DNA of 64,000 bases from Thermoplasmata archaeon (lineage in GTDB: Archaea > Thermoplasmatota > Thermoplasmata > RBG-16-68-12). The notes under the pieces were generated by a model, which did no database searches, had not been told where the DNA came from, and saw only the letters and a program-made list of their open reading frames with translations. The position numbers and the translations under genes were made by a program. Positions 40,477-58,691 of the stretch are shown here, piece by piece (within the stretch, counting starts at the first letter, position 1; each line of letters begins with the position of its first letter). The stretch covers positions 1-64,000 of the forward strand of contig DASWDU010000012.1 of the NCBI GenBank assembly GCA_036395115.1, given 5' to 3'.

Positions 40477-43400
40477 TCAGAACTCCACGCCGAGTTGGTG
40501 GGCGAGGGCTCGGAGTTCCTCTTCTTTCTTACGCATCTTCTCTTCGCGGTCGAGGAGTTCCATCGCCTTCTTCTGGATAATCTTCACACGGCTCTCGACA
40601 TCTCTCCTCCAGTCTTCCAACGCGCTGCCGCTCGGGCCGCCCATCTTCTCCATCTCGGCGAGCTTCGCCCGCAGGCGCTCCACCTCGGCCGTGAGCTTTG
40701 ACGTCTTCGCGTCGAGTTCCTGGCGATCCGACTGGACGACGCCCTCTTTGCCCTCCAAGATTTCCATCCGCGTATCGAGGCCTCGTTCGCGCTCCACAAT
40801 CTTCCCTTCGCGGGCGCGCATTTTCTCCTCTTGGTCCAGCACTTCGAGGGCCTTCTTCTGAAGGAACCGGAGGTTCTTCGTGACCTCGGCCTGCATTCCG
40901 TCCGCTTGGGCGCGGAGCCGCTCCGCCTCTCGCTTGAGCGTCTCTGCCTCGTCTCGCGCGGCGAAGCTGACGCGGCCGTCCTCCTCGATCTGAGCGCGTT
41001 GCGACTCCAGCTCGCCCCGCGTTCGTTCGAGGGACCGCATCGCCTCTCCCAGCTCGGCATCCTTCGCCGAGAGGCTGACCGTTCGTTTCGAAAGTTCCGC
41101 CTCCGCCGCCCGGCCCGCATCCTCTCTCGCCCGGATTTCCCGCTCCTTCTTCGCAAGGTCTTCCATGAGATTGTCGGCCCGCTGCAGCTCCATGGTGAGA
41201 GTCTGCTCCTTCGTCGATAGCTGCGCACCTCTCGCGTCCAAGGCGCTCGCACGCGAGTCGATTTCCCTTTGCCGGGCTGCGAGCCGGTCCGATAGGCTGG
41301 TGACTTGAGCCGATTCCTGATCGAGCGCCGTCTTCCGCACTCGGATCTCCGCGGAGGCCGAGGCCAAATCGTGCTCCGCGATCGTCATCTTCGTCTGCCT
41401 CGCCTCGAGTTCTTTGACGGCAGCATTGGTTTCCAGTTCCTTCGTTGCGAATTTTTGCGAGGCTTCGTTGACTTGGGCGATCCGCGCCTGCAGGTCCCGT
41501 TCCGCCTTCTCCGCATCCGCGCGGCGCTTTTCGAGGATGTCTTGCTGCGCGACGAGCTCGTCGGCTTGCCGCTTCGCCGCCTTCTCGGCCTCCTGAGCGA
41601 CGAAGATCCGGCGCTGAGCCTCGGCGACGAGCCGCTCCGCTTGCTGGGTCTGTTGGCCCGCTGCGTCCCGAGTCGCCTCGAGCTGTTTCAGTTCCTCGGC
41701 ACGCTTGGCGGACCACACGGACCTCTCCGACTCGAAGGTCTGTCGGGCTCGGAGCAGATCGTCCTCACCCGCCCTCAGCTCCGCGATCCGAGCCTCCGAC
41801 CGTTGCCAGGCCGCATCCGCCTCGCTCGCTTTCGACGCGGCGGTCTTCGCTTGCGACTCGAGTTTCGATCGCTCGAGATCGAGCTGGGCCATCGCGGCCC
41901 GCGCCGAGCGCTCGCGGCCGTCGATCTCTTCCATCCGCTTCGCCAATTCGGCCGCTCGCGCCTCAGCCGTCGCGTTCATCTGGCCCTGCTGCATCCTCAG
42001 GTCTCTTTGGAGCGTTTCCGATTCCCGCCGCTTCTCCGCGCCCTCCGATTCGAACCGCTTCACCATCTCGTCAAATTGGGAGGCGCGCTCGTTAATGTCC
42101 TGCTCCCGACGACTGGACAAACTCGCTCGTGCGGAGAGTTCGGTCGCCATCGTCTCGGCCTGGCGCTCCTTCGTGTCCAAGTCCCGGAGGCGGGCTTCCA
42201 AGTCCTGCTCCTCCGCTCGTAGGTCCACCTCCCGCGCGGAGAGGGCCCTCTCCCGAGCCGCCATTTCTTTCGCCTTCGCACCGAGGGTTTCCTGGAGCAT
42301 GCTCGAGTCCCGCTCGATCCGCTCGCGCTCGGCCTTGAGATCGGCTTCCTTCGCCGCGAGCGCGTGGCGGGTCGCTTCCGCCTCGGACCGGACCCGCGCG
42401 GCTTCGGCGTCGTAGCGGTCTTTCATATGCATCAGCTCGAGCTGGCGGGCCTCCAGCTGCTGGGTCTCCACCTGGACGTCGCCCCTCTCTCGCTGAAGTC
42501 GCTGCTCCACCTCGCGGAGCGTTTCCTCCGTGGACGCAATCCGAGTGTCCCGCTCGAGGAGGTCGCGGGCTTTCAGCTCCGCGGCGAGCGCGTTCTTCTG
42601 GATCTCGTTTTCCATCTGTTGCAGCCGCTGCGTTCGCGTCGTTTGCTCCTGTTCGAAGTCGGAGCGCCGCAGGCTCAACTCCCTCTCGAGGGTGTCCAAG
42701 GCCTCCGTCCGATCCGTGAGCTCGACCGCGTGGCGGGCCGTTTCTTCGCGCGCCGTGCGCTCGCGAGAGTCGAGTTCGAGGGTCCGCTGCTCAATTTCAC
42801 GGAGGACCCCGTCGGCCTTGGCCTGTAGTTCCGAGGCTTGGCGAGTCGCCTCCGCGGTCGCCGTCTCACGACGACTCAGCTCCTCGTCCGTCTTCGTGGC
42901 CCGTTCGGTGGCCGTCCGGACCTTCTCCTCCAGGTCCTTGACGGTATCTTCTCGCTCCTCGACGCGCCGGACCCGATCCGCCCATGAGGATCGAAGGTCC
43001 GACATCTCCTTCTCGAACGTGTCCCCCTGCTCCTTCAGGAGCGCCTGTTGCGACTCGAGCGTCTTCTGCCACGTCCGGAGCTCCTCCGCGCGCCGGGCTT
43101 CTTCGTCCCGCAGGTGCGCGGCTTTCTCATCGAGCTCTCGGGTGAGCGTCGCGAGCTCGGCCTTCCGGACTTCCAGGTCGGCGCGCGACTTGTCGGTCCT
43201 CTCTTCCTCGATTTCAAGGGTTTCCTCCCGGGACGCGAGTTCGGACAGACGCCGGCCGCTCTCCTCCGCCTGGGAACGGATCGCTTCCTCCTTCTCCCGG
43301 GTCGACTGCTCCCGCGATTCGAGCTCAATCTCCTTGGAGAGAATCGCCTGGTTCCTCTCGATGCGGCTCGTATCGAACGTCTCCTTGTCGTGGGCCAGCC

Positions 43401-46400
43401 GGAGTTGGGCTTCCCCGACGTCCTTCGCCTGGGCGTCGAGATCCACGCGCCTGCGTCGAAGTTCGTCCTCGTACTGAGCGGTCCGTTGCTGGAAGTCCTT
43501 TCGCTCGACGTCGAAGGCGCCGCGCGCCTCCTCGAGGACGACGCGATTCTCCGACAACGCCGTCTCGCGATCTTCGACGGATTTCGCCCGCTCCGCGAGT
43601 TCCCGGGAGGCCGCATCGGTGATTGCCTTCAGGCTTTGGAGTTCCGACTCCTTCTCCGACACCGCGGCCTCGCGAGCCTCGAGTTGCGCCTCGACCGGCT
43701 GGATCCGCTCTTCTCGGCGGGCGAGGTCGTCCGCCTTCGCGGCCGCTTCCCTCTTGGCCGTCTCGACCTCGACGACTCGTTCGTCGAGGGTCCGTCGGAG
43801 CTCCAGGAGGTCTTTCTGGTCCGCTTCGAACCGCTGGCGGTCCTGCGTGAGTCCCGCCACGTCTCGGACGACGGCCGATTCCCGACGATCAAGGTCTTGG
43901 CGCGATGTCTCGAGGTTTGCCGACATTGCGCTCAATCGAACGGACTCCGCCTTCAACCGGGCATCCTCTTCCCCGACCGCCGCCTCCTTCTCTCGGAGGG
44001 TCGTCTCGGTCTTCGCGGCGCCGTCCTCCCGCGCCGACACGGCGTCGGACCTCGTGGCGACCGCGGCGGCCTGTGCCTGCGTCTCCGCGGAACGTCGATC
44101 CAGGGAGGTGCGCAGCTCTTCGGTCTGCCGCGACAGCTCGTCGACCGCCGTTCGTCCCTCCGCGAGCGTCTGTTCCCGTCGGATCAGATCTTGTTCTTTC
44201 GCCGCCAACGCGCCGGTGTCCGCGTCGATTTTCGTCTGGGCCAGTTGCACTTGGCGGAGCGTCGATTCGATCTCGACCGCCCGCGCTTCGCTGGCGCTTT
44301 GCCGTTCGTCGAGCGTCTGAGCGCGTGACGCGAGTTCCGCGTCCCGGGCCCGCGCTTCCTCGAGGCGCTGCTTCACGGCATCCTCGAATTTGTCTTGGAT
44401 TTGGACGAGCATCTCCCGAGCGAACTCGACCTGTTCCGAGGTCACGGGTCCGTACGCGAGCAGCACGACCGCGAGGGCGTCCCCGCGGACGGTCTGCCCG
44501 TGGTATTTCGTGACTTTGATCGGCTTCTCGACCGCGTCGAGCACGCCGGCCTGAACCGCCTGGTCGTACGTGACCTGGCAGCCGGGGTCCAGGGTGAATT
44601 CCCTGATCATTCGCCCTTTCTCGTCCACGAGGAAGGCCTTGGCGGGCTTCCAGCGCGCGCGCTGCGCAAACATTGCTACCACCACGAAGACGCCGATCGG
44701 AGGCAGGGCGAGGATGTACGGCGCCTGCCACCATGCGGGGGTGATGTGGAAGGCTACCGACACCTCGCGATTCGCCGCCGATGTCCCATCGGAAATTGTG
44801 ACATTGAACCGCGCGCTCGTCCGGTCGGACGGGAACGCGAGCGTCAGGCGATGCCCGCTCACAGTGACGTACGGGCTGTCCGTGGTCACGGCAATCGAGG
44901 CGAGCGGCGTGTCGACGTCCGCGATATATGGATCGAGATCGAGGACGTAGGTGGTCCCCGCTTCGACGGAGAGTGCCGGGACGGCGGCGAGGATCGGTGG
45001 GTCGTCCACGGAGCGCACGGCCACGGCGAAGGCGACTTCCGCGAAGCCGCCCGATGGGTCCGTCCCGCGGAGCCGCACCGCTTCCGATCCGAACCAGTTG
45101 GGGTCGGCCCAGAAGTCGAGGGTGCTGTTCGGGTTGACTCGGAAGTGCACGGATCGGTTTCCGAGGACGGTGAAGACGAGTGGGTCACCGTCGGGATCGT
45201 CGATGAACGCGGTCGCGATCGCCCCGAGGCCGTTCGGGGCGGTCGTGTCCTCGTCAAACTGCACTGACGGCGGCGTTGCGACGACGCGGGGGGGATACGT
45301 GCCCGCCGCCACGATTGTGAGGAGCGTCCACGCCGTATCGATCCCATCGGAGACCCAGAGGGTCACGACGTACGTGCTCGCCGTCGCGTACGTGATCGTG
45401 AGGGACGGGTACGGACCGCCGAGCGCGCTGACGTTCGCGCTGTCGGCATCGGAGACCGTGAGACCGGAGAAAGGCGTGTCGAGGTCCGTCACGTAGAACG
45501 TCAGGTTGAGGCCGTACGGCGTCCCCGTGCGGACGTGAATTGTGGGGATGCCGGCGATCGTCGGAGGATTCGTCCCGATTCTGCGGCTTCCGACGCCGAC
45601 CTTTTCAGCGGACCCCTGGAGATTCACGTCGTCAAAGGCCGTCGCGTGGATGGTGACCCCATTGATCGGGCTGCTCGGGGTCCAGACGTAGGAACCGTCG
45701 ACCGTCAGGTCGGTCCCAATCACGCGCGAGGTCCCATCGAAATACGTGAAGTCGACGCGGACGACATCCGAGGAAGTCGCGTAGGTGAGCGTGAGTGTGC
45801 CGCTCGTCGCCTGGTTGTCCGTCACGGCGCCGAGCGTGATCGTCGGCGGCGTGTTGTCGACCTCGATCGGGGCGACGACCGTCGTATTCGAAATCGTCCG
45901 GTTGTTGGTTGCGACCGCGCGCAAGCTCCCTCCGACGAAGTTGAGCGGCGTCGTGTCCCACGGGAACGTTCCGTTCGGTGGCGCGGCCGTCCCGAGTGTC
46001 GTCCAGCCGCTCCCGCCGTTGTACTCGAATCGCACCGAGGCGGCGTCCGCGCTGAACGTGTAGGTGATGAGCACGGCGCCGGTGAGGTGGACCCCGTTCG
46101 TCGGCGAGGCGACGGCGACCCACGGGAGGACTCCGCTGACGACGTGGATCTGGGCGACGCCGGTCACCGCGCCCACGGATGCGACGACCGTGCCGTTCGC
46201 CGGGGGCGGGCTTGCCGTGAAATTGACGTTCGGTCCCGTCGTCACGTTCAGCGAACCGACGCCGCCCGTCACGGCCCACGAGTATGCCAAGGCTGCGATT
46301 GGGTTGTCCCACGCATCGTACCCTTGGGCGGAGAGGTCTCGGCCGTCGAAGGGCAGGATCGTCACATCGTTTGGCGTCACCGAGAGGTGGTCGAGGGGTC

Positions 46401-48744
46401 CGGGGGAGACGGCGACGAGCCCGCTCAGTCCGGAGGCGCTCCCGAAGCTCGCCCGGATTCGGATCGTCTCCGCCTTCGTGTACGTCTCGGTGCTGAGGGT
46501 CGTGGACCCGCCGGCGGTGATCGCGATCGTCGTGGTTCCCAGGGTGCCGCCGCCAGGGGTGACGCCGTCGGGCAGCCGCGCGTCGATCGCTACGGTGCCC
46601 GTCCACCAGGTCATCGTCGCGTTCCCGGCGTCCTTGGCCGTGATCGTGACCGTGAACGACGCGCCCGCCGTCGCGGTCGACGAGGCCGTTACGAAGAAGC
46701 GGTCGAGCAGGTGGCGGTATCCGAGCCGCATCTCACTGATCGTCGGCGTGATCGTGGCGTTCGACGTCGACAGCGTCGCGCGGAAGCGGATCTTTCCGGT
46801 GGCGGTCGAGACGGACAGGAGGGACGCCGGTGGGGAGACGCTCGTCCAGCTGCCGCCCGAGTCCGTTGAATAGTCGTACGCGATCGTCTGGCCGTTCAGC
46901 GTGTGGACCACGGCGAAGGAGTCCCACTGGCTCAGGTCGGGCGGGGCGAAATCCTGCGTCGTGAGCGTGCCCGACGCGGGATACAGGGACCAGGAGAGGT
47001 TGACGTCCCCGATGTTCGGCGTGTGGTCCGGGTACGTCACGGCGAAGGAGAGCCGGAATTCCGCGTACCGAGAGACGCCGGTCATCGCGGAGCCCGAGGG
47101 CGTCGCGTAGGGCGAGGACCAGCCGGTCCAGGTGCCATCGACCGGGCTCGTATTCCCGAGGCGCGTCGAGACCGCCGCGGTCGCATCGTTGGAAATCTGT
47201 ACGCGGATGTAGTCGATGTCGATCGTGTGAGCGGTGCCGGAGAGGCCGTCGGCGACGAATAGCGCGAGCCGGACCTCGAGCGGGTACTCCATCCCCGGGG
47301 TGTACGTGTCCAGGGCCGTCCATGTGGACCCGTCCGAACTCGTGGATGCGGCGAAGCTCACCCCGGATCGGACGATCCGGAACCACGCCGGGATCGGGTT
47401 GCCACTCGCGACGTTCGCGCGGATCCCAGACACGGAGTCGGTGGTCGCCTTCGCCTGCCAGTTCACGGTCCCGGCGACGTTCACCTTCTGGGCCGCATAC
47501 CAGTTTCGGTTGTTCAGCAGGACCATGAGGCCCGCTTTCTGGCCGCTCACGGTCGGATTGCCGCTGATCTTCGCGATGGCGGTGAAGTCGCCGACGACCT
47601 CATTCGCGAGGACGTTGCCCGTGAACGTCCCCGCGTCCAGGTCGACGCCCGTGCTGGAGACGATGTGCAGGCTCCCCGGCGTCGTCGTGCCCTCGTCGTA
47701 CGCGGCGGGCGGGTTGGTCCAGGTCCATTTCGGATTGAGGCTCCCACCGTTGAATTCGTCCGACACGTACGAGCGTTCGGTGGCGTTCCACGAAATCGAC
47801 TGCCAAGCGACGAGGGACCCCGGGCCGCCTACCTTCGAGATGTATTCTCCGGTCGCGCCGAGCACCCGGTAACGGATGTCGAGCTTCGGGCGAAGGGTCG
47901 GATCGGCCGCATAGTCAGAGGACCAGAACGTCTTGTCGAGATTTGTTCCGCCGGCCGAACCCAGGAGGATCATGCCGTTGTTCGGGACGCGGTTGCGGTA
48001 CCACAGGTCCACGATTTGTGTGACGTTCCAGGTCTTCCATCCGAGGACCGCGTTGAGGCTCTGGACATCGATCGCGCGCGCGTCGTAGTCCCCGCCGGCG
48101 GTGGTCCAAGGCGTCCCTGTGAGCCGGTCGTTCCACGTCGCCTGGCCTTCGTTCCACGTCGGGGTGACGGCGTGGATTTCGGCCGAAGAAGGATTCGCCG
48201 CGGCGGCGGACATGTAGAGGACGAGCTTCGCGTCATCGATGACCGCGCCCGCTGGAATCGAAGCCATGCTGAACTGGAGGATCGGCCGGCGGCTCGTAGA
48301 ACCGCGGGCGTCGTAGACGAGGGTCGTGTCGCCGCCGTGGTTGAGGTTCACGGAGCCTCGGTCCAGGTAGGCGTCGAGGCCCGCCGCCGGGTCCGGCTGG
48401 ATTGTGAGGAGCGTGGACGTCCCCGAAGTCGACGAGAGGACGATGTCGCCAGGGTACGTCGTGAAGTCGACATTCGTTGCACCGTCGGGGCCAGCGAAAT
48501 CGGCCGCGGTCGTGCTGTTCCACCACGAGACTTGCGGACGCAAGGTGGCCAGCCCACCGGCTACGCGGACGTTCGATGTCGTGTAGTCGGCCGGCGTCGA
48601 GAAGTTCCACACGACGTCCGATGTGCCGTCGAGATTGTCGGTTGACGTGGGATCGGCGGCCGCCGGGTGGACCGGAAGCAGCGTGATAGCGAGAGCGCTG
48701 ACGACGAGGACCAAGGCTATCGTGACCGCGAACGGTCGGCGCAT
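40477..48744 (-). CDS. Giant surface-anchored protein with about 1,300-residue cytoplasmic coiled coil
   Basis: This 2,755-residue protein is one unbroken frame. It has a signal peptide (about 1-31), then a DNRLRE-like domain (about 115-295, with WNEGQATWNDRLTG and WNVTQIVDLWYRN), a laminin/DUF1349-like beta domain (about 330-520), several Ig- and cadherin-like domains to about 1330, and a single membrane span (about 1338-1360, PYILALPPIGVFVVVAMF). Inside the cell a domain of about 90 residues (KAFLVDEKGRMIREFTLD) is shared with the two following paralogues. Then almost pure heptad coiled coil runs to the C-terminus, interrupted by the motif QKKAxELLDxEEKMR. If continuous it would be roughly 190 nm long. 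Function is unknown; a structural link between surface and cytoplasm is my inference. Confidence 0.9.
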   Translation of the reverse strand: MRRPFAVTIALVLVVSALAITLLPVHPAAADPTSTDNLDGTSDVVWNFSTPADYTTSNVRVAGGLATLRPQVSWWNSTTAADFAGPDGATNVDFTTYPGDIVLSSTSGTSTLLTIQPDPAAGLDAYLDRGSVNLNHGGDTTLVYDARGSTSRRPILQFSMASIPAGAVIDDAKLVLYMSAAAANPSSAEIHAVTPTWNEGQATWNDRLTGTPWTTAGGDYDARAIDVQSLNAVLGWKTWNVTQIVDLWYRNRVPNNGMILLGSAGGTNLDKTFWSSDYAADPTLRPKLDIRYRVLGATGEYISKVGGPGSLVAWQSISWNATERSYVSDEFNGGSLNPKWTWTNPPAAYDEGTTTPGSLHIVSSTGVDLDAGTFTGNVLANEVVGDFTAIAKISGNPTVSGQKAGLMVLLNNRNWYAAQKVNVAGTVNWQAKATTDSVSGIRANVASGNPIPAWFRIVRSGVSFAASTSSDGSTWTALDTYTPGMEYPLEVRLALFVADGLSGTAHTIDIDYIRVQISNDATAAVSTRLGNTSPVDGTWTGWSSPYATPSGSAMTGVSRYAEFRLSFAVTYPDHTPNIGDVNLSWSLYPASGTLTTQDFAPPDLSQWDSFAVVHTLNGQTIAYDYSTDSGGSWTSVSPPASLLSVSTATGKIRFRATLSTSNATITPTISEMRLGYRHLLDRFFVTASSTATAGASFTVTITAKDAGNATMTWWTGTVAIDARLPDGVTPGGGTLGTTTIAITAGGSTTLSTETYTKAETIRIRASFGSASGLSGLVAVSPGPLDHLSVTPNDVTILPFDGRDLSAQGYDAWDNPIAALAYSWAVTGGVGSLNVTTGPNVNFTASPPPANGTVVASVGAVTGVAQIHVVSGVLPWVAVASPTNGVHLTGAVLITYTFSADAASVRFEYNGGSGWTTLGTAAPPNGTFPWDTTPLNFVGGSLRAVATNNRTISNTTVVAPIEVDNTPPTITLGAVTDNQATSGTLTLTYATSSDVVRVDFTYFDGTSRVIGTDLTVDGSYVWTPSSPINGVTIHATAFDDVNLQGSAEKVGVGSRRIGTNPPTIAGIPTIHVRTGTPYGLNLTFYVTDLDTPFSGLTVSDADSANVSALGGPYPSLTITYATASTYVVTLWVSDGIDTAWTLLTIVAAGTYPPRVVATPPSVQFDEDTTAPNGLGAIATAFIDDPDGDPLVFTVLGNRSVHFRVNPNSTLDFWADPNWFGSEAVRLRGTDPSGGFAEVAFAVAVRSVDDPPILAAVPALSVEAGTTYVLDLDPYIADVDTPLASIAVTTDSPYVTVSGHRLTLAFPSDRTSARFNVTISDGTSAANREVSVAFHITPAWWQAPYILALPPIGVFVVVAMFAQRARWKPAKAFLVDEKGRMIREFTLDPGCQVTYDQAVQAGVLDAVEKPIKVTKYHGQTVRGDALAVVLLAYGPVTSEQVEFAREMLVQIQDKFEDAVKQRLEEARARDAELASRAQTLDERQSASEARAVEIESTLRQVQLAQTKIDADTGALAAKEQDLIRREQTLAEGRTAVDELSRQTEELRTSLDRRSAETQAQAAAVATRSDAVSAREDGAAKTETTLREKEAAVGEEDARLKAESVRLSAMSANLETSRQDLDRRESAVVRDVAGLTQDRQRFEADQKDLLELRRTLDERVVEVETAKREAAAKADDLARREERIQPVEAQLEAREAAVSEKESELQSLKAITDAASRELAERAKSVEDRETALSENRVVLEEARGAFDVERKDFQQRTAQYEDELRRRRVDLDAQAKDVGEAQLRLAHDKETFDTSRIERNQAILSKEIELESREQSTREKEEAIRSQAEESGRRLSELASREETLEIEEERTDKSRADLEVRKAELATLTRELDEKAAHLRDEEARRAEELRTWQKTLESQQALLKEQGDTFEKEMSDLRSSWADRVRRVEEREDTVKDLEEKVRTATERATKTDEELSRRETATAEATRQASELQAKADGVLREIEQRTLELDSRERTAREETARHAVELTDRTEALDTLERELSLRRSDFEQEQTTRTQRLQQMENEIQKNALAAELKARDLLERDTRIASTEETLREVEQRLQRERGDVQVETQQLEARQLELMHMKDRYDAEAARVRSEAEATRHALAAKEADLKAERERIERDSSMLQETLGAKAKEMAARERALSAREVDLRAEEQDLEARLRDLDTKERQAETMATELSARASLSSRREQDINERASQFDEMVKRFESEGAEKRRESETLQRDLRMQQGQMNATAEARAAELAKRMEEIDGRERSARAAMAQLDLERSKLESQAKTAASKASEADAAWQRSEARIAELRAGEDDLLRARQTFESERSVWSAKRAEELKQLEATRDAAGQQTQQAERLVAEAQRRIFVAQEAEKAAKRQADELVAQQDILEKRRADAEKAERDLQARIAQVNEASQKFATKELETNAAVKELEARQTKMTIAEHDLASASAEIRVRKTALDQESAQVTSLSDRLAARQREIDSRASALDARGAQLSTKEQTLTMELQRADNLMEDLAKKEREIRAREDAGRAAEAELSKRTVSLSAKDAELGEAMRSLERTRGELESQRAQIEEDGRVSFAARDEAETLKREAERLRAQADGMQAEVTKNLRFLQKKALEVLDQEEKMRAREGKIVERERGLDTRMEILEGKEGVVQSDRQELDAKTSKLTAEVERLRAKLAEMEKMGGPSGSALEDWRRDVESRVKIIQKKAMELLDREEKMRKKEEELRALAHQLGVEF

Positions 48745-48808
48745 TGCGGATACCCTCCGGTGAAGGCGAGGCCCTCCACCGAAAAACAGGATTCCAGGCC
48801 CGGGTGAC

Positions 48809-48817
48809 CTATATAAG
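48809..48817 (-). promoter_or_regulatory. TATA box of the giant coiled-coil gene
   Basis: CTATATAAG (CTTATATAG on the minus strand) lies about 65 bases before the ATG of the 2,755-residue protein. Transcription would start about 25 bases downstream, giving a leader of roughly 40 bases. It is the most AT-rich element in the gap and marks the giant gene as having its own promoter rather than depending on the upstream paralogues. Confidence 0.55.
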
Positions 48818-48861
48818 AGCCGTTCGGTGGTTATCCGACCTGATTACATGGAGGGGAAGAG

Positions 48862-50262
48862 CTACTTCGCCGGCACGTGCTCGGAGATTCGAGACTCCGC
48901 CGCCTCGAGGTCGGCGGCCCGCTTCCGGAGCTTCGCTTCGCGGTCGAGCAGCTCGAGCGCTTTCTGTTGGATGATCTTCACTCGCCGTTCGATGTCCTTC
49001 CTAACCTCGTCCGCATCCGCACGGACCTCGGCGGGCTGAGGCCCTGCCTGGGCGAGGAGCGCCTTCGATCGCTCGAGATCCTGCTCGAGGGCAGCGAGGC
49101 TTTCCCCGCGGCGGTCGAGGTCCTGCTCGCGTTCGTCGACACGACCTTCGCGATCCCGGACGCGCTCTTCACGGTCGAGCAACTCGATCGCCCTCCGCTG
49201 GAGGAACTTCCTCTCCCGAGCGAGTTCCGCCGCATCCCCGTTGACCGCCTTCCGCGCATCGTCGGAAGGTTCTCCGGGGGGTCGGTGCGAAGCGACGATG
49301 CGCTCTTTCGCCATCGCCGCAAACCGCTGGCTCAGCTCGGCGACCCGTGTCTCGATCTCCCGCCGCGTTTTCTCTTCTTCCGCGGCGTGTGCGGCGGCTT
49401 CGCCCCGCTCCCTCCCGAGCGTCGCGATGGCTTCCTGGACTTCCTTCCCGAGCCTCTCGTTTTCGGCGATCGCGTCGCGGTACTTCGTCTCGAGGTCGGC
49501 CTTCGCCGACTGCAACGCGTTCCGCTCCTCCTCGAGTCGTGCGTCGTCCGTGGCACTCGACTGGGCCTTCGCAGAGGCGGCCCGATTCGCCGCCGCGATC
49601 GTCTCGGCCGTCTCGAGCGTCTTCAACGCCCGCGAGACGCCTTTCGTGACGCCGTCCTGCATCCCGGCGGAATAGTCGGCGACCGCGGCGAGTCGCGCCT
49701 TCTGCCGGTTCAGTTCCTCTTGGCGTCCCCGGAGGTTCGCCGCTTCGGCCTTCAGCTTGACTTCGAGTTCCGCGAGCAGTCGTTCGCGTCCGGCGAGTCG
49801 GGACTCGCGTTCGCCGAGCGCCTTGTCCGCTTCCGGTCGCGCCTCCGCGGCCCTCGGGGCGACCGTCCGGGCCGCGCGTTGCGAGAGGTGGGAGTCGGCG
49901 GCCGTTAGCAGAAGCCCGGTCCAGTCGAAGTCTTCCGGCCCAAGATGGCCGCGGGACAGGAGGACAAACACGAACTTGCCGCTTTGGAAGGCGGTGAACA
50001 CGTACTCCCCGACGAACAGCGAGTCGCGATCTCCGATCCCTTCGTTCGGAAGGACTTTCAGGAAATCGTTGAAGTCTACGGGACAATCCGCGTCCAGCAC
50101 GTACTCGCCCGCCATCTCTCCGCGCTCGTCGAGGACGTAGATTTTCTTCAACTGCGCCCGGGCCACTTTCTTCATTGGCGCGGCCATCAGGACGGAGAGA
50201 AGCGCCGGGCTGAGTCCTCGTGTCAGGATGCCGGAGAGCACGGTTTCAATCGCCCCGAGCAT
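48862..50262 (-). CDS. Coiled-coil protein with N-terminal sensor-like domain, paralogue of the giant protein
   Basis: The 466-residue cytosolic protein has a short amphipathic N-terminus, then the shared domain (KIYVLDERGEMAGEYVLDAD followed by a Cys-Pro) at about residues 40-130, then a coiled coil of about 320 residues. The motif QRRAIELLDREERVR occurs in the middle and QQKALELLDREAKLRKR at the end, the latter nearly identical to the C-terminus of the giant protein. It has no membrane span. The gene sits about 120 bases upstream of the giant gene and downstream of a third paralogue. The shared domain and motif suggest the three proteins assemble together. Confidence 0.82.
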   Translation of the reverse strand: MLGAIETVLSGILTRGLSPALLSVLMAAPMKKVARAQLKKIYVLDERGEMAGEYVLDADCPVDFNDFLKVLPNEGIGDRDSLFVGEYVFTAFQSGKFVFVLLSRGHLGPEDFDWTGLLLTAADSHLSQRAARTVAPRAAEARPEADKALGERESRLAGRERLLAELEVKLKAEAANLRGRQEELNRQKARLAAVADYSAGMQDGVTKGVSRALKTLETAETIAAANRAASAKAQSSATDDARLEEERNALQSAKADLETKYRDAIAENERLGKEVQEAIATLGRERGEAAAHAAEEEKTRREIETRVAELSQRFAAMAKERIVASHRPPGEPSDDARKAVNGDAAELARERKFLQRRAIELLDREERVRDREGRVDEREQDLDRRGESLAALEQDLERSKALLAQAGPQPAEVRADADEVRKDIERRVKIIQQKALELLDREAKLRKRAADLEAAESRISEHVPAK

Positions 50263-50378
50263 TCGTGGGCCGCCCCGTATCGCGAGGGCGTTCCCTCGCG
50301 ATCCACCGATGAAGAAATCGAGCAGGGCTGAATCCTATTAAGGGAAGGGATTTGGTTATCGGGAGTGAGAAGCTGCAA

Positions 50379-51068
50379 TCATCGAGGCGGCGCGTCCACA
50401 TCGGGCGCGGGTGGGTTCTCCTCGGTTGCATCGGAAACGTCCGCCTTCCCCTTCGACGTTCGGAAGGTCTGCTGCAAGGCGACCGCATATTCTCGCACGG
50501 CGTTGACTCGCTCTTCCCGGTCGAGGACGCTCGCCTCGAGTTCTCGGACTTTGGCCGTGGTCCCTTCCAGGTTCGCCTCCGCGTCCGCCACGCGGGCTTC
50601 CCGCGCCGCGACGGTGGATTCGCGCCGATCGAGGTCTCGTTCCCGCTCCCGCAGCGCGGTCTCCTTCTCCGTCAGCGCGAGCAGCCGGCTCTGCGTGAGG
50701 TGCGCTTGCATCGCGGCGAGGAGGGTGCCGATCGCCCCGCGTTCCTCGATGCGGGGCACTCCATGCGTGAGGACGACAAACCACAGCCCTTCGACGCGGA
50801 ACGGGGTGAAGGCGTATTCCCCTTGGTAGAACGAAACCAGGTGTCGCAGCCCACTTAGCGGGATCGACCGTTGAAGGTCCTCGTGCTCGAGCGGGCAATC
50901 GTCCCGCAGGGCGTACTCCCCGAGCAGCTTCCCCTCTTCATCGAGGACGAAGATGCGCTCGTATTCGACCCGGGAGGCCGTCCCGGGGCCGCGCATCGTG
51001 AAATGCGTCGGGACCTGGCCGAGGCCGCCCCGGGGGGGCGTCTCGTTTCGGGACATCTCCTTCGGCAC
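50379..51068 (-). CDS. Short coiled-coil protein with N-terminal sensor-like domain, third paralogue
   Basis: The 229-residue protein has the same N-terminal domain as its neighbours (RIFVLDEEGKLLGEYALRDD followed by Cys-Pro, then FYQGEYAFTPFRVEGLWFVV) at about residues 38-130. A coiled coil of about 70 residues follows (REDDLDRRE-like heptads) and ends with VLDREERVNAVREYA, a shortened form of the shared motif, and then an acidic, Pro-rich tail. It is the smallest member of the cluster and may be a soluble adaptor. Several in-frame ATGs near the start make the exact N-terminus uncertain. Confidence 0.8.
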   Translation of the reverse strand: MPKEMSRNETPPRGGLGQVPTHFTMRGPGTASRVEYERIFVLDEEGKLLGEYALRDDCPLEHEDLQRSIPLSGLRHLVSFYQGEYAFTPFRVEGLWFVVLTHGVPRIEERGAIGTLLAAMQAHLTQSRLLALTEKETALRERERDLDRRESTVAAREARVADAEANLEGTTAKVRELEASVLDREERVNAVREYAVALQQTFRTSKGKADVSDATEENPPAPDVDAPPR

Positions 51069-54368: not shown

Positions 54369-57300
54369 ATGGCCCACATGCGCCCCCACAGTCCCCCCTC
54401 GACCCTGCGAAGCATCGCCCTCGTCGTCCTGCTTCTCGGGGCGGCATGGGGCGTCCTCATTGTCACCGCCCCGTCGGTCGCCGCGACGCACTACGTCCGC
54501 GGGCTCATCACGACGGATACCGTGTGGGGCGACGATGCCAACGACACGACGTACGTCGTGATGCGGGACGTGACGGTCCGGGCGCCCGCCACGCTGACGA
54601 TCCGCCCGGGGACGACGGTCAAGTTCGACCCGGGCACCCATCTCTTCGTCGAGGGCTCTCTCGTCGCCGACGGGACGTCCGGAAAGCTGATCACTTTCGG
54701 CCCAAACAACACGGCGTCGGTGTTTCCCTGGGGAGGCGTCCAGTTCAACGCGAGTTCGTCGGGATCCGTCTCCTGGTCGACGTTCGACCGAGCCGATCGA
54801 GCCGTCACGGCCATCTCCAGTTCCCCGGCGTTGCGAGACATCACGGTCGTCCAAGCTGCGATCGGCTTCGCGATCGTGTCCTCCGACAGCGAGGTGTCGA
54901 ACAACGTGATTTTGCGCGCGTCCATCTTTGGCGTGTACCTGAACACATCGAGCGGCCGAGTCGAGGGGAACGTGATCAACGGGACGTCCATCGCGATCCA
55001 CGTGGAGCAGCCTGGGACGCCGGTGATCTCCGGCAACACGATCACAAACGTCAGCGGCGGCTTCGCGATCGGGATTGCGGTCTCCTCCGCGACGGCGGAC
55101 ATCTCCGGGAACACGATCACGGGGATCCAAGGCGCCCGCGGAGCGAACGGCGTCGCCCCGGGGGCCGACGGGCGGGATGGGGGCATCGCCCTCGGGATCT
55201 ACGTGACGGGCGCACCCACCGCGTCGATCACGCGGAACACGATCAGCATGCTCTTCGGTGGCCGCGGCGGGGATGGTGCCGCGAACACGGCCGGCGCGGG
55301 CGGCCGGGGCGGGAACGGGGGCACCGCGGCGGGCATCATCGTTGCGTCCACTCCCGACGCCCTCGTCGAGGAGAACTCGGTGAGCGGCCTGAACGGGGGT
55401 CGGGGCGGCGCGGGCGGCGGCAGCGGGTTCACGAACAACGGAGGTCGCGGCGGCGACGCGGGAGCGACGATTGGGATCGAGGTCGCCTTCGCAACCACCG
55501 GGGGAGGAGCAAACCGGAACCAGATTACGGATCTGGTCGGAGGCATCGGAGGCTCCGGCGGTCCTGGCGCGACGACGGACGGGGACGGCGGCGTCGGCGG
55601 GGACGCCTACGGCGTCTTCATGACCACGGTCGCCCAGTCCGGCGCGAGCCGGAACACGATTCAAAACCTCCGCGGGGGCCTCGGTGGCAATACGAGTGCG
55701 AACGGGGCGGGCAGGGGAAACGGCGCCCGAGGCGGCAGCGCCTCGGGCGTGGAGGTGCTGTCGGTCGTCCAAACCGCGACTTCGGATTCGAACACGATCA
55801 AAACGCTCACGGGCGGCGACGGCGGCCGCGGGGTCCGCGGCGGTTACGGTGGCAACGCGACCGGGGTGATCGTCCTCGGGAGCAACGACGGCGCGTTCAA
55901 CGCCACCTCAATCACGCTGAACGACGTCCAGGCCGTCACCGGCGGCGAAGGGGGAATTGGAGCGAAGTTCGGCGGCAACGGTGGGAGCGCCGCAGGACTC
56001 GCGTCGATCCTCGCGACGCCAACGCTTGCCTCGAACGCAATCGCGGCGCTCCAGGGCGGTCGGGGCGGAGACGCGGTGGACGGCAACGACGGCGGACGCG
56101 GCGGCGATGCGTTCGGCATCATCGGAGGGCTCGTCGCGAACGGATGGTCCTCGGGCGACTCGATTTCCGGCGTCACGAAAGGCGGCGCGGGTGCGGGTCC
56201 GCCGGCCCAAGGTTCGTACGCGGACGGCGTATACGTCCTCGGAAACGCGTCGTTCACCTCGCGCCTGACGATCGAGAACGGGACGTTTTCGTCCGTCGGC
56301 AGCTACGATTTCTATGTCGACAACTACACGGAGGCCGTCGCCCTGAGCACGCCGTTTGCGACCCACGCGGTCCAAGCGGCGGGGAACCTGACGGTCCGAA
56401 CCTTCCTCGAGGTCGACGTCCTCTGGCCGAACGGGCTGACGCCCGTCGCGGAAGCCCACATCTTGGTCGACGACAACGGCTCGCCGATCTGGGATCGTTC
56501 GACGGCGACCGGAATCCAGTCTTGGATCGTCGTGACGGACCGGCGGTACATCGACTCGAACACAGCGACGGACAACCGCACGACGGTCAAGGTCACCTAC
56601 GGCTCCTACGCCTTCCAAAGCAATCCGCGCGATGTGGACATGGCGACCAGCCATCCCGAGGCGTTCGTCATGATCGACCAGGACGCCCCGACGTCCACGG
56701 CGGGCACCCTCCCGGCGTACGAGAACACACGGACGTTCTCCGTCGGATATGCGGCGAGCGACGGGAACGGGACCGGCGTGGCGAGCGTCACTCTCTGGTA
56801 CCGTACGGGCGGCAGCGCGACGTGGACGTCGTACGCGACTCAGTCGGGAAACATCGGCCAATTCAGCTTCACCGCCGCGGGCGACGGGACGTACGAGTTT
56901 GCCACGACCGCGACCGACGTCGCGGGCAATGCGGAGGCGGTCCCCCCAGCGAACGACACTTGGACGATCGTCGACACGATCCGGCCCGGCTCCCACGTGG
57001 ATGCCCAGCCGCCGTACGAGACCTCGAATTCTTTCGTCGTGTCGTGGTCCCCGGACGCGGGCGTCACGGACATCGCCACCTACACCATCCAGTATTCCAC
57101 CGGGGGCGGCTGGGTGAACTGGCTCGTCGACACCCCGTCCACCTCGGGTACGTTCAACGCGGGCGCGCAAGGGGTGTACGCATTCCGTTCGATCGCAACG
57201 GATGCGGCGGGCAACGTCGAGGTGGCGCCCGCCGGCAACGACACCTGGACGATCGTCGACACGATCCGACCGTTCTCGCACACGCGGCCCTTGCCCGCCT

Positions 57301-58691
57301 ATGAGATGTCCACGAGCTTCGCGGTTGCATGGGAGCCGCAGCTCGACACCACGGACATCGCGAGCTACGAGATCGACGTGCGGGACAACGGAGGCGGGTG
57401 GACGATTTGGATTCCGACGACGATCGCGGTGTCGGCGACCTTCGTCTCGGGCGTGGACGGGCACACCTTCGAATTCCGGTCCATCGCGACGGACCGCGCG
57501 GGGAACCGCGAACTCCCGCTGTCCGGTAACGACTCGTGGACGGTTGTCGACCTGACGCCCCCGGATTCGTCGATGATCGCCCTCCCGGCGTACGAGAACG
57601 CGCTTCAGTTCACGATCTCCTGGGGGCCCGTCGCAGGGACGTCGGATATCGCCGCGTATCGCGTGCAATCGAAGGACGGGGCGGCCGCATGGATGGATCT
57701 CTCGGGATACACGGACACGGCGGCGACGAGCGCGTCCTTCGTGGGCGTGGACACCCACGTCTATGCGTTCCGTACGATCGCGCGCGACCGCGCAGGGAAC
57801 GTGGAGCCGACGCCTCCCGGCAACGACACGTGGACCATCGTTGACGTTGGGCGCCCCTATGTGACCGCGACGGAGCCGATCGGCGCGAACACCAACACGA
57901 CGCCCTTGATTCGGATCACGTTCAACGAGCCAATGGATCAGAACTCGGTGGAACAGGCGTTCTCGATCACGCCCGCGATCAACGGCGTGTTCGCATGGAG
58001 CACCAACGGTCGAGTGGTGACCTTCACGCCCGCTCGCGAACTCCAAGCGGGGACCCTGTATTTCGTGGTCATCGACACCGGCGCCAAGGATCTGGCGGGG
58101 AACTCGATCCCCCAGTCCAAGAGTTTCGGCTTCACCACCGCGTCCGCCGGGGTGACGTTCTCCGACTTCTGGTGGATTCTCCTCGCCGTGGGGGCGGTGG
58201 CGGGTGGGACCCTCTTCCTCGTGATGCGGCGCCGGGCGGCATCCGCCTCGAAGCACGCGCGGGCCGCGTCCGCCACGAAAGCGAGCGAGGCGATCCTCGA
58301 AGACGTTTTCCTGCTCTACCACCGGGACGGTTTGCTGATCAAGCACGAGACACGCCGCCTCCGTCCCGACATCGATACAGACATCCTGAGCGGCATGCTC
58401 ACCGCGGTCCAGGCGTTCGTCAAGGACGCCCTGAGGGGCGACGACTCCGGGGACCTGAACGAGATGACCGTGGGCCACATGCACATCCTGATCGGCCGCG
58501 GGAAGTGGCTCGTCTTGGCCGCGCGGATCGAGGGCGACGGCTCGGAGTCGTGGACGGACCAGATTCAGCGGTGCATCCAGGACATGGAAGACCACCACTG
58601 GGACCAGCTCGAGGACTGGGAAGGCGACATGGCCCTGGCGGGGATCCTGGCCCCGTACGTCAAGAAGTTGATTCGCGGCGAGTACGCGTAG
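54369..58691 (+). CDS. Surface protein: glycine-rich beta-helix, Ig/FN3-like repeats, membrane span, roadblock-like domain
   Basis: The 1,440-residue protein has a signal peptide (about 1-40) and a right-handed beta-helix region with repeated N-x-I turns. About eight repeats of roughly 50 residues follow, each carrying GGxGG clusters (residues about 290-610). Four FN3/Ig-like domains come next, each ending in a DxAGN...NDTWTIVD signature, and then a bacterial Ig (Big_5) domain (ITFNEPMDQNSVEQAF). A membrane span lies at about 1264-1285, and the cytoplasmic C-terminus has a roadblock/longin-like fold (DVFLLYHRDGLLIKHETRRL). It resembles archaeal surface sensors that bind or recognise something outside and report inward. 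It may pair with the ArsR-type regulator next to it. Confidence 0.88.
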   Translation: MAHMRPHSPPSTLRSIALVVLLLGAAWGVLIVTAPSVAATHYVRGLITTDTVWGDDANDTTYVVMRDVTVRAPATLTIRPGTTVKFDPGTHLFVEGSLVADGTSGKLITFGPNNTASVFPWGGVQFNASSSGSVSWSTFDRADRAVTAISSSPALRDITVVQAAIGFAIVSSDSEVSNNVILRASIFGVYLNTSSGRVEGNVINGTSIAIHVEQPGTPVISGNTITNVSGGFAIGIAVSSATADISGNTITGIQGARGANGVAPGADGRDGGIALGIYVTGAPTASITRNTISMLFGGRGGDGAANTAGAGGRGGNGGTAAGIIVASTPDALVEENSVSGLNGGRGGAGGGSGFTNNGGRGGDAGATIGIEVAFATTGGGANRNQITDLVGGIGGSGGPGATTDGDGGVGGDAYGVFMTTVAQSGASRNTIQNLRGGLGGNTSANGAGRGNGARGGSASGVEVLSVVQTATSDSNTIKTLTGGDGGRGVRGGYGGNATGVIVLGSNDGAFNATSITLNDVQAVTGGEGGIGAKFGGNGGSAAGLASILATPTLASNAIAALQGGRGGDAVDGNDGGRGGDAFGIIGGLVANGWSSGDSISGVTKGGAGAGPPAQGSYADGVYVLGNASFTSRLTIENGTFSSVGSYDFYVDNYTEAVALSTPFATHAVQAAGNLTVRTFLEVDVLWPNGLTPVAEAHILVDDNGSPIWDRSTATGIQSWIVVTDRRYIDSNTATDNRTTVKVTYGSYAFQSNPRDVDMATSHPEAFVMIDQDAPTSTAGTLPAYENTRTFSVGYAASDGNGTGVASVTLWYRTGGSATWTSYATQSGNIGQFSFTAAGDGTYEFATTATDVAGNAEAVPPANDTWTIVDTIRPGSHVDAQPPYETSNSFVVSWSPDAGVTDIATYTIQYSTGGGWVNWLVDTPSTSGTFNAGAQGVYAFRSIATDAAGNVEVAPAGNDTWTIVDTIRPFSHTRPLPAYEMSTSFAVAWEPQLDTTDIASYEIDVRDNGGGWTIWIPTTIAVSATFVSGVDGHTFEFRSIATDRAGNRELPLSGNDSWTVVDLTPPDSSMIALPAYENALQFTISWGPVAGTSDIAAYRVQSKDGAAAWMDLSGYTDTAATSASFVGVDTHVYAFRTIARDRAGNVEPTPPGNDTWTIVDVGRPYVTATEPIGANTNTTPLIRITFNEPMDQNSVEQAFSITPAINGVFAWSTNGRVVTFTPARELQAGTLYFVVIDTGAKDLAGNSIPQSKSFGFTTASAGVTFSDFWWILLAVGAVAGGTLFLVMRRRAASASKHARAASATKASEAILEDVFLLYHRDGLLIKHETRRLRPDIDTDILSGMLTAVQAFVKDALRGDDSGDLNEMTVGHMHILIGRGKWLVLAARIEGDGSESWTDQIQRCIQDMEDHHWDQLEDWEGDMALAGILAPYVKKLIRGEYA
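55237..56196 (+). repeat. About eight in-frame glycine-rich repeats inside the surface protein gene
   Basis: Each unit of roughly 50 codons encodes a beta-helix turn of the form N-x-I-x-x-L followed by GGRGGDG-type and GGNGGxA-type glycine clusters, then a hydrophobic strand of the form G-I/V-x-V. The units differ in sequence but keep the pattern, so they are old. Boundaries are approximate. The glycine content is far above the rest of the protein. Confidence 0.75.

Follow-up and report, generated by a model that had tools for sequence, protein, structure and literature searches.

Background

The AglZ protein of Myxococcus combines a long coiled coil with a receiver-like domain and works with a Ras-like GTPase, although it is soluble and has no surface part. 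In eukaryotes, LINC-type linkers establish a physical link across the membrane by means of a long helical protein. To our knowledge, the longin and roadblock platforms of archaea have been discussed almost entirely for the Asgard archaea and in connection with the origin of eukaryotic trafficking. Pairs or dimers of roadblock and longin domains are known platforms for small GTPases (PMC10933270). Group 1 Rup systems of bacteria bring together a Ras-like GTPase, a coiled-coil protein of the cytoplasm, and a membrane protein that carries a peptidoglycan-binding domain (PMC4316618). The same paper cites the interaction of AglZ with MglA.

We examined a cluster of three genes in the window, the whole 64,000-nucleotide stretch of DNA analysed here, which derives from a 2.40-Mb assembly that is 98% complete. 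The largest gene encodes a protein of 2,755 residues (the giant) that shares features with each of these systems. Both AglZ and the giant join a long coil to a domain for a Ras-like GTPase, the GTPase part being proposed in the case of the giant, and they differ in the surface part. The resemblance to LINC-type linkers is an analogy of layout only, with no homology. Rup group 1 and conservon systems follow a similar logic with different protein families; unlike them, the giant carries rod, span and surface part in one chain, and its cluster contains no GTPase gene.

Close homologues occur in records named 'Euryarchaeota archaeon' EA_* (soil bins), RBG_19FT_COMBO_69_17 and UBA8695 (Thermoplasmata). 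Ca. Angelarchaeales, from soils and sediments of this kind, is the published name for the Thermoplasmatota order RBG-16-68-12 (PMC9038741), and from the names we infer that the window belongs to it. Our search of the open-licence literature found neither a matching giant coiled-coil protein nor any longin receptor described for Thermoplasmata; the fold of the domain considered below is already known, and it is the combination and architecture that appear to be undescribed. The giant, a product of uncultured archaea of soil and sediment, is the longest single-span link from surface to cytoplasm that we know of in an archaeon.

Results

Organization and conservation of the cluster

The initial annotation described three genes led by a 2,755-residue trans-membrane protein, and this layout was borne out on the minus strand:

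40477-48744, minus strand: gene for the giant, 2,755 codons (2,755 aa) in a single frame, with single-frame homologues in 15 relatives
48862-50262, minus strand: gene for a 466-aa protein with hydrophobic N-terminus, longin-like domain, coiled coil and C-terminal double motif
50379-51068, minus strand: gene for a 229-aa protein, GTG start, with longin-like domain and short coiled coil

The intergenic spacers are ~117 bp, and third-position GC is as high in the three genes (0.81-0.84) as in their neighbours, which supports coding in all three frames.

Each of the 19 genomes available for the genus, the source genome among them, has a homologue of the 466-aa protein. Homologues also occur in the sister genus (all three genomes sampled) and in families f4 and f5 of the same order, and were not found in families f2, f3 and f6. 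Surface part, span, domain and coil occur together in a single frame in 15 other genomes of three families: G001-G004, G006, G008, G009, G012, G014-G016 and G018 from the same genus, G020 from the sister genus, G024 from f4 and G025 from f5. Several of these giants are cut by contig ends and that of G009 has an apparent frame break in its outer part; homologues reach 4,474 aa, an upper bound given the uncertain start codon. The initial annotation had proposed to look for synteny among relatives, and this is what is seen: where a contig holds both, the giant and 466-aa genes are in most cases direct neighbours with the same orientation; in G020 two genes separate them. The 229-aa gene is missing from at least five relatives (G006, G008, G011, G014, G015). 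In other genera, a ~755-aa protein (MIRERV...LVQAFSGG end) adjoins a 466-aa-type gene or a giant gene (L077, L081, L083).

Absence from all relatives and an assembly fusion had been raised as the two grounds on which the cluster might be dismissed. The homologues in three families remove the first. An assembly fusion or chance frame is scarcely credible, as the same organization stands in one frame in the 15 other genomes and the junction between span and domain is very highly conserved; nothing was found in its favour.

Exported part and topology of the giant

The features of the giant, from its N-terminus to its C-terminus, are as follows:

48652-48744, minus strand: predicted signal peptide, residues 1-31, ...PVHPAAAD
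47875-48375, minus strand: DNRLRE / disaggregatase-related (CBM96-like) domain, residues 124-290 (NCBIfam NF033679, 82.7 bits against a cut-off of 34)
47302-47763, minus strand: concanavalin A-like domain (GH43_C2/DUF1349), residues 328-481 (Pfam, over cut-off)
44731-45747, minus strand: Ig/cadherin-like stretch before the span, about residues 1000-1338 (weak tandem-95 match)
44656-44730, minus strand: membrane span, residues 1339-1363, then arginine-rich QRARWKP; the sole strong hydrophobic stretch besides the signal peptide
44365-44649, minus strand: predicted longin-like domain, residues 1366-1460, its last helix leading into the coiled coil (AlphaFold2 pLDDT 87; Foldseek)
40525-44397, minus strand: heptad coiled coil of ~1,290 residues (hydrophobic periodicity)
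40495-40920, minus strand: C-terminal double motif, hhQKKAxxxLDREEKxR, two copies ~95 aa apart (alignment)

Pfam Disaggr_repeat falls slightly under its cut-off on the DNRLRE region and CBM96 exceeds its own at the same position in four relatives, while Big_9 and cadherin-like domains are over cut-off at the pre-span position in two relatives. These outer domains suggest carbohydrate or matrix binding. About 1,310 residues are predicted to be exported and about 1,390 to be cytoplasmic, with charged residues making up 13% outside versus 42% inside. Signal peptide, exported domains, one span and positive charge on the inner side together characterize the giant, by sequence prediction, as a type I membrane surface protein. 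The large exported part, single span and more than 1,000 residues of cytoplasmic coiled coil claimed in the initial annotation are thus recovered as a predicted signal peptide, one further hydrophobic stretch and a heptad signal.

The coiled-coil rod

The cytoplasmic coil has a hydrophobic period of 3.52 with a power of 35, against 10.7 for the highest of 500 shuffles, and the last 1,305 residues of the protein contain 2 prolines; this periodicity identifies it as a predicted canonical heptad coiled coil. The rise of a coiled coil is 0.1485 nm per residue, and 1,290 residues fully extended would form a rod of ~190 nm, a computed upper length that leaves room for back-folding. Relative to close relatives, the coil differs by insertions or deletions of 105, 7, 21 and 91 residues, each divisible by seven, the expected outcome of selection on an unbroken heptad register; the coils of distant relatives align too ambiguously for such a reading. 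The nearest relatives of the giant have a cytoplasmic part of 1,381-1,388 aa, and what precedes it ranges from 914 to 3,086 aa.

An SMC-like or chromosome-tethering protein reaching from the envelope to the DNA could account for a rod of this kind, and weak SMC profile matches do occur in the coil. This identity is very unlikely, since the matches score ~30 bits (31) against a cut-off of 567 and are confined to the coil, and neither an ATPase head nor a DNA-binding domain is present. Assignment to any known family was rejected as well: Pfam, NCBIfam and PADLOC yield only the exported domains and coil noise. The match of the 466-aa protein to LmuB (16.9 bits) covers coil, and matches to Histone_HNS, RNase_Y_N and calmodulin are far under cut-off or insignificant.

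A longin-like domain shared by the three proteins

A domain of ~100 residues is common to the giant, where it directly follows the span, and to the 466-aa and 229-aa proteins. In the 466-aa protein the two regions shared with the giant are located as follows:

49888-50160, minus strand: predicted longin-like domain (domain alignments; hhalign to the domain of the giant)
48898-49254, minus strand: C-terminal double motif (BLASTP 39% over 140 aa to the end of the giant; profile E 3.5e-36)

Across the domain the 466-aa and 229-aa proteins are 33% identical (E 3e-22), and the profile of the giant's domain matches that of the other two with an hhalign probability of 98.5% (E 3e-15), so that by sequence comparison the three domains are judged homologous. 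Positions D10, E18, C25 and G68 are invariant in an alignment of 20 sequences. The sole cysteine of the giant, Cys1389 (window 44578-44580), lies inside the domain; the sole cysteine of the 466-aa protein, Cys60, is the same conserved residue, which is also the only cysteine in every complete 466-aa-type relative examined. The invariant cysteine is a possible site of acylation or cross-linking.

AlphaFold2 models the giant's domain as bb-a-bbb-a with a mean pLDDT of 87. In a Foldseek search of the PDB, the first fifty matches are nearly all members of the longin/roadblock superfamily, among them AP-2, AP-3 and AP-4 mu, zeta-COP, Roadblock, MglB, MglC, Ragulator and SRX, with probability ~1 and TM up to 0.59 but weak E values of 0.005-0.1. 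By sequence the domain matches none of the Pfam families, those of longin and roadblock included, and a PDB sequence search gave no convincing match to a solved structure. We designate it longin-like on the grounds of the predicted fold only. It resembles the longin/roadblock platforms (MglB, Ragulator, TRAPP, and the AP and COP longins) in its predicted bb-a-bbb-a order, in the encoding of several longin paralogues together and in the membrane-proximal position of the giant's domain. Unlike them, it is without sequence match to solved members or Pfam, and in the giant it leads through one C-terminal helix into a coil on a single-span surface protein. A Ragulator-type platform is resembled in logic, by analogy, through three clustered longin-like paralogues of which one is tied to the membrane.

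The double motif extends the relation between two of the proteins. In 61 genomes its strong matches fall on giants, their shortened relatives and the 466-aa type, and weaker matches (E above 1e-6) resemble coil noise. The giant and the 466-aa protein are thus predicted to have the same two ends with a different rod between. The initial annotation had called the two smaller proteins soluble paralogues of the giant. Their paralogy holds by sequence, although through the longin-like domain (and in two proteins the double motif) and not through the coiled coil as such, whereas the solubility of the 466-aa protein is uncertain in view of a conserved hydrophobic N-terminal segment of ~26 residues immediately before its domain. 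The longin-like domain itself, which is the best mechanistic clue and the link to wider longin receptors and small GTPases, had been overlooked.

Beyond the cluster, the domain profile matches 46 of 300 genomes of the class, and 390 genomes sampled from the phylum gave nothing further outside the class. Family f8 (L121, L126, L119, L131) has a soluble protein of 720-860 aa with longin and coiled coil, whose gene adjoins a heavy-metal P-type ATPase-like gene, and family f23 (L123, L124) has one of about 1,100 aa (up to 1,140). The giants of G019 and G029 have span, domain and coil but no surface part. From these surface-less giants and the soluble versions in other lineages, the cytoplasmic module is probably older than its fusion to the surface part.

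The same observations bear on a plain mechanical explanation, in which the coil anchors an adhesin or surface-layer protein and stiffens the cell, no GTPase is involved and the longin-like domain only dimerises. The carbohydrate-binding and Ig-type outer domains do vary greatly in length around a rod that is the long constant part, as an anchor would allow. We consider it improbable nonetheless, as the cytoplasmic module is kept in G019 and G029 without the surface part, and soluble longin and coiled-coil versions occur in other lineages of the class.

Receptor-type longins and small GTPases

A second type of longin occurs elsewhere in the window, on a separate surface protein:

54369-58691, plus strand: 1,440-aa surface protein with signal peptide, NosD/Ig-type domains, one span and a receptor-type longin (at 58296-58685)

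A homologue of this gene is found near the cluster in at least G001, G004, G007, G011, G012, G014 and G015. Counting this protein, and besides the giant, the source genome encodes ~17 single-span proteins of the surface or membrane whose cytoplasmic longin is not in Pfam and which have no long coiled coil (examples are L160, L161, L167, L168 and G000:C32:16073-17084). The profile of the giant's domain missed these tails, which were found by reading the sequence after the span. They are ~140 residues long and match the giant's domain by profile at 93% (E 3e-7). The domain is predicted with pLDDT 75 and elements E-E-H-E-E-E-H-H-H, and its Foldseek E values go down to 1.9e-5, the Sec22b longin aligning with TM 0.67/0.73 and rmsd 3.0. 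Longins proper, of the eukaryotic type, are distinguished by a third helix, so that two helices follow the last strand; in the predicted models two C-terminal helices follow this strand in the receptor type, and a single long helix running into the coil in the giant's domain. The giant is like these proteins in having an exported part, one span and a cytoplasmic longin; they differ from it in having no long coiled coil and no C-terminal double motif. In G031 (L125), two surface proteins of ~1,010 and 1,638 aa are encoded side by side; both are single-span proteins with a longin tail and lack a long coiled coil.

Receptor-type longins number 3-17 per genome in the 26 genomes searched and occur also beyond the class. 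The source genome contains stand-alone Arf/Ras-like GTPases, some encoded directly beside receptor-type longin genes on the same strand. Of the 138 small GTPases among the matches listed for this order, 21 are encoded no more than 6 kb from a receptor-type longin, versus ~5 expected by random placement; all 21 pairs are on the same strand and some are 98-211 bp apart. The genomes are related, and the 21 cases represent roughly four distinct gene arrangements. No GTPase gene lies beside the giant cluster, and the matches listed include none on its contig. Taken together, the receptor-type longins and GTPases look like a phylum-wide receptor-GTPase system.

These proteins raise the possibility that the giant is itself a receptor, in which binding outside is relayed through the span to a longin-like domain that switches a small GTPase, the coil being an effector scaffold and not a mechanical link. 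The ~17 coil-less surface proteins of the same genome, some beside GTPase genes, provide a precedent, as do the bacterial Rup group 1 and conservon systems, which pair a membrane protein with a Ras-like GTPase (PMC4316618). Set against this are the lack of a GTPase gene beside the giant cluster and a conserved rod of 1,380 residues with heptad-preserving indels, which exceeds the needs of a switch. We regard a receptor of this type as somewhat unlikely.

Discussion

We tentatively propose, at slightly less than even confidence, that the three genes specify a scaffold spanning the envelope, with a longin platform beneath the membrane that a small GTPase perhaps controls. The proposal builds on topology, domains, fold, coil, shared modules and conservation as predicted from sequence, and on this basis we infer that the domains pair, that the motifs dock, that a GTPase binds and that the assembly serves to anchor or position. 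The giant would be a type I membrane protein whose carbohydrate- or matrix-binding-type outer domains reach the surface, with one helix through the membrane and the longin-like domain directly inside. The last helix of this domain would continue into a long, probably dimeric rod, up to ~190 nm if fully extended, that ends in the double motif. The 466-aa protein would present the same two ends on a short rod, and the 229-aa protein a longin-like domain with a short coil. At the cytoplasmic face of the membrane, the three longin-like domains may form a platform by pairing. The matching C-terminal motifs may bind one another or share a single docking partner, and the platform may retain or regulate a small Ras/Arf-like GTPase whose gene lies elsewhere in the genome. 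The purpose would be anchoring or positioning.

The weakest point of this platform is that no GTPase gene adjoins the cluster. Also counting against the scaffold are the weak Foldseek E values of the giant's domain (best 0.005), though nearly all of its best matches fall within one superfamily, the absence of the surface part in some relatives and the missing 229-aa gene in at least five. Contact among the three proteins is a proposal, and the 1,300-residue coil could fold back instead of reaching far. The initial annotation had suggested a dedicated scaffold between the surface and the interior. That suggestion agrees with the anatomy, with the clustering of the genes and with the way the cluster is conserved from family to family; G019 and G029 do without the exported part, so that the conserved core is the cytoplasmic module and not the link as a whole. 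For the comparison it drew with bacterial filament systems, direct support is lacking.

Conclusions

A more far-reaching version of the scaffold, which we hold to be unlikely, would be the archaeal equivalent, in layout, of the trans-membrane linkers of eukaryotes: one chain that binds the extracellular matrix, continues through the membrane to a longin platform under GTPase control and a rod resembling a cytoskeleton, and so couples surface contact to internal organization outside the Asgard group. Surface proteins with longin-like domains occur throughout an order of Thermoplasmata, and some are encoded beside small GTPases. If the proposed scaffold is correct, it would offer a way for archaea that have no known cytoskeletal cortex to connect their surface with the interior, and would represent a second archaeal setting for longin-GTPase signalling.
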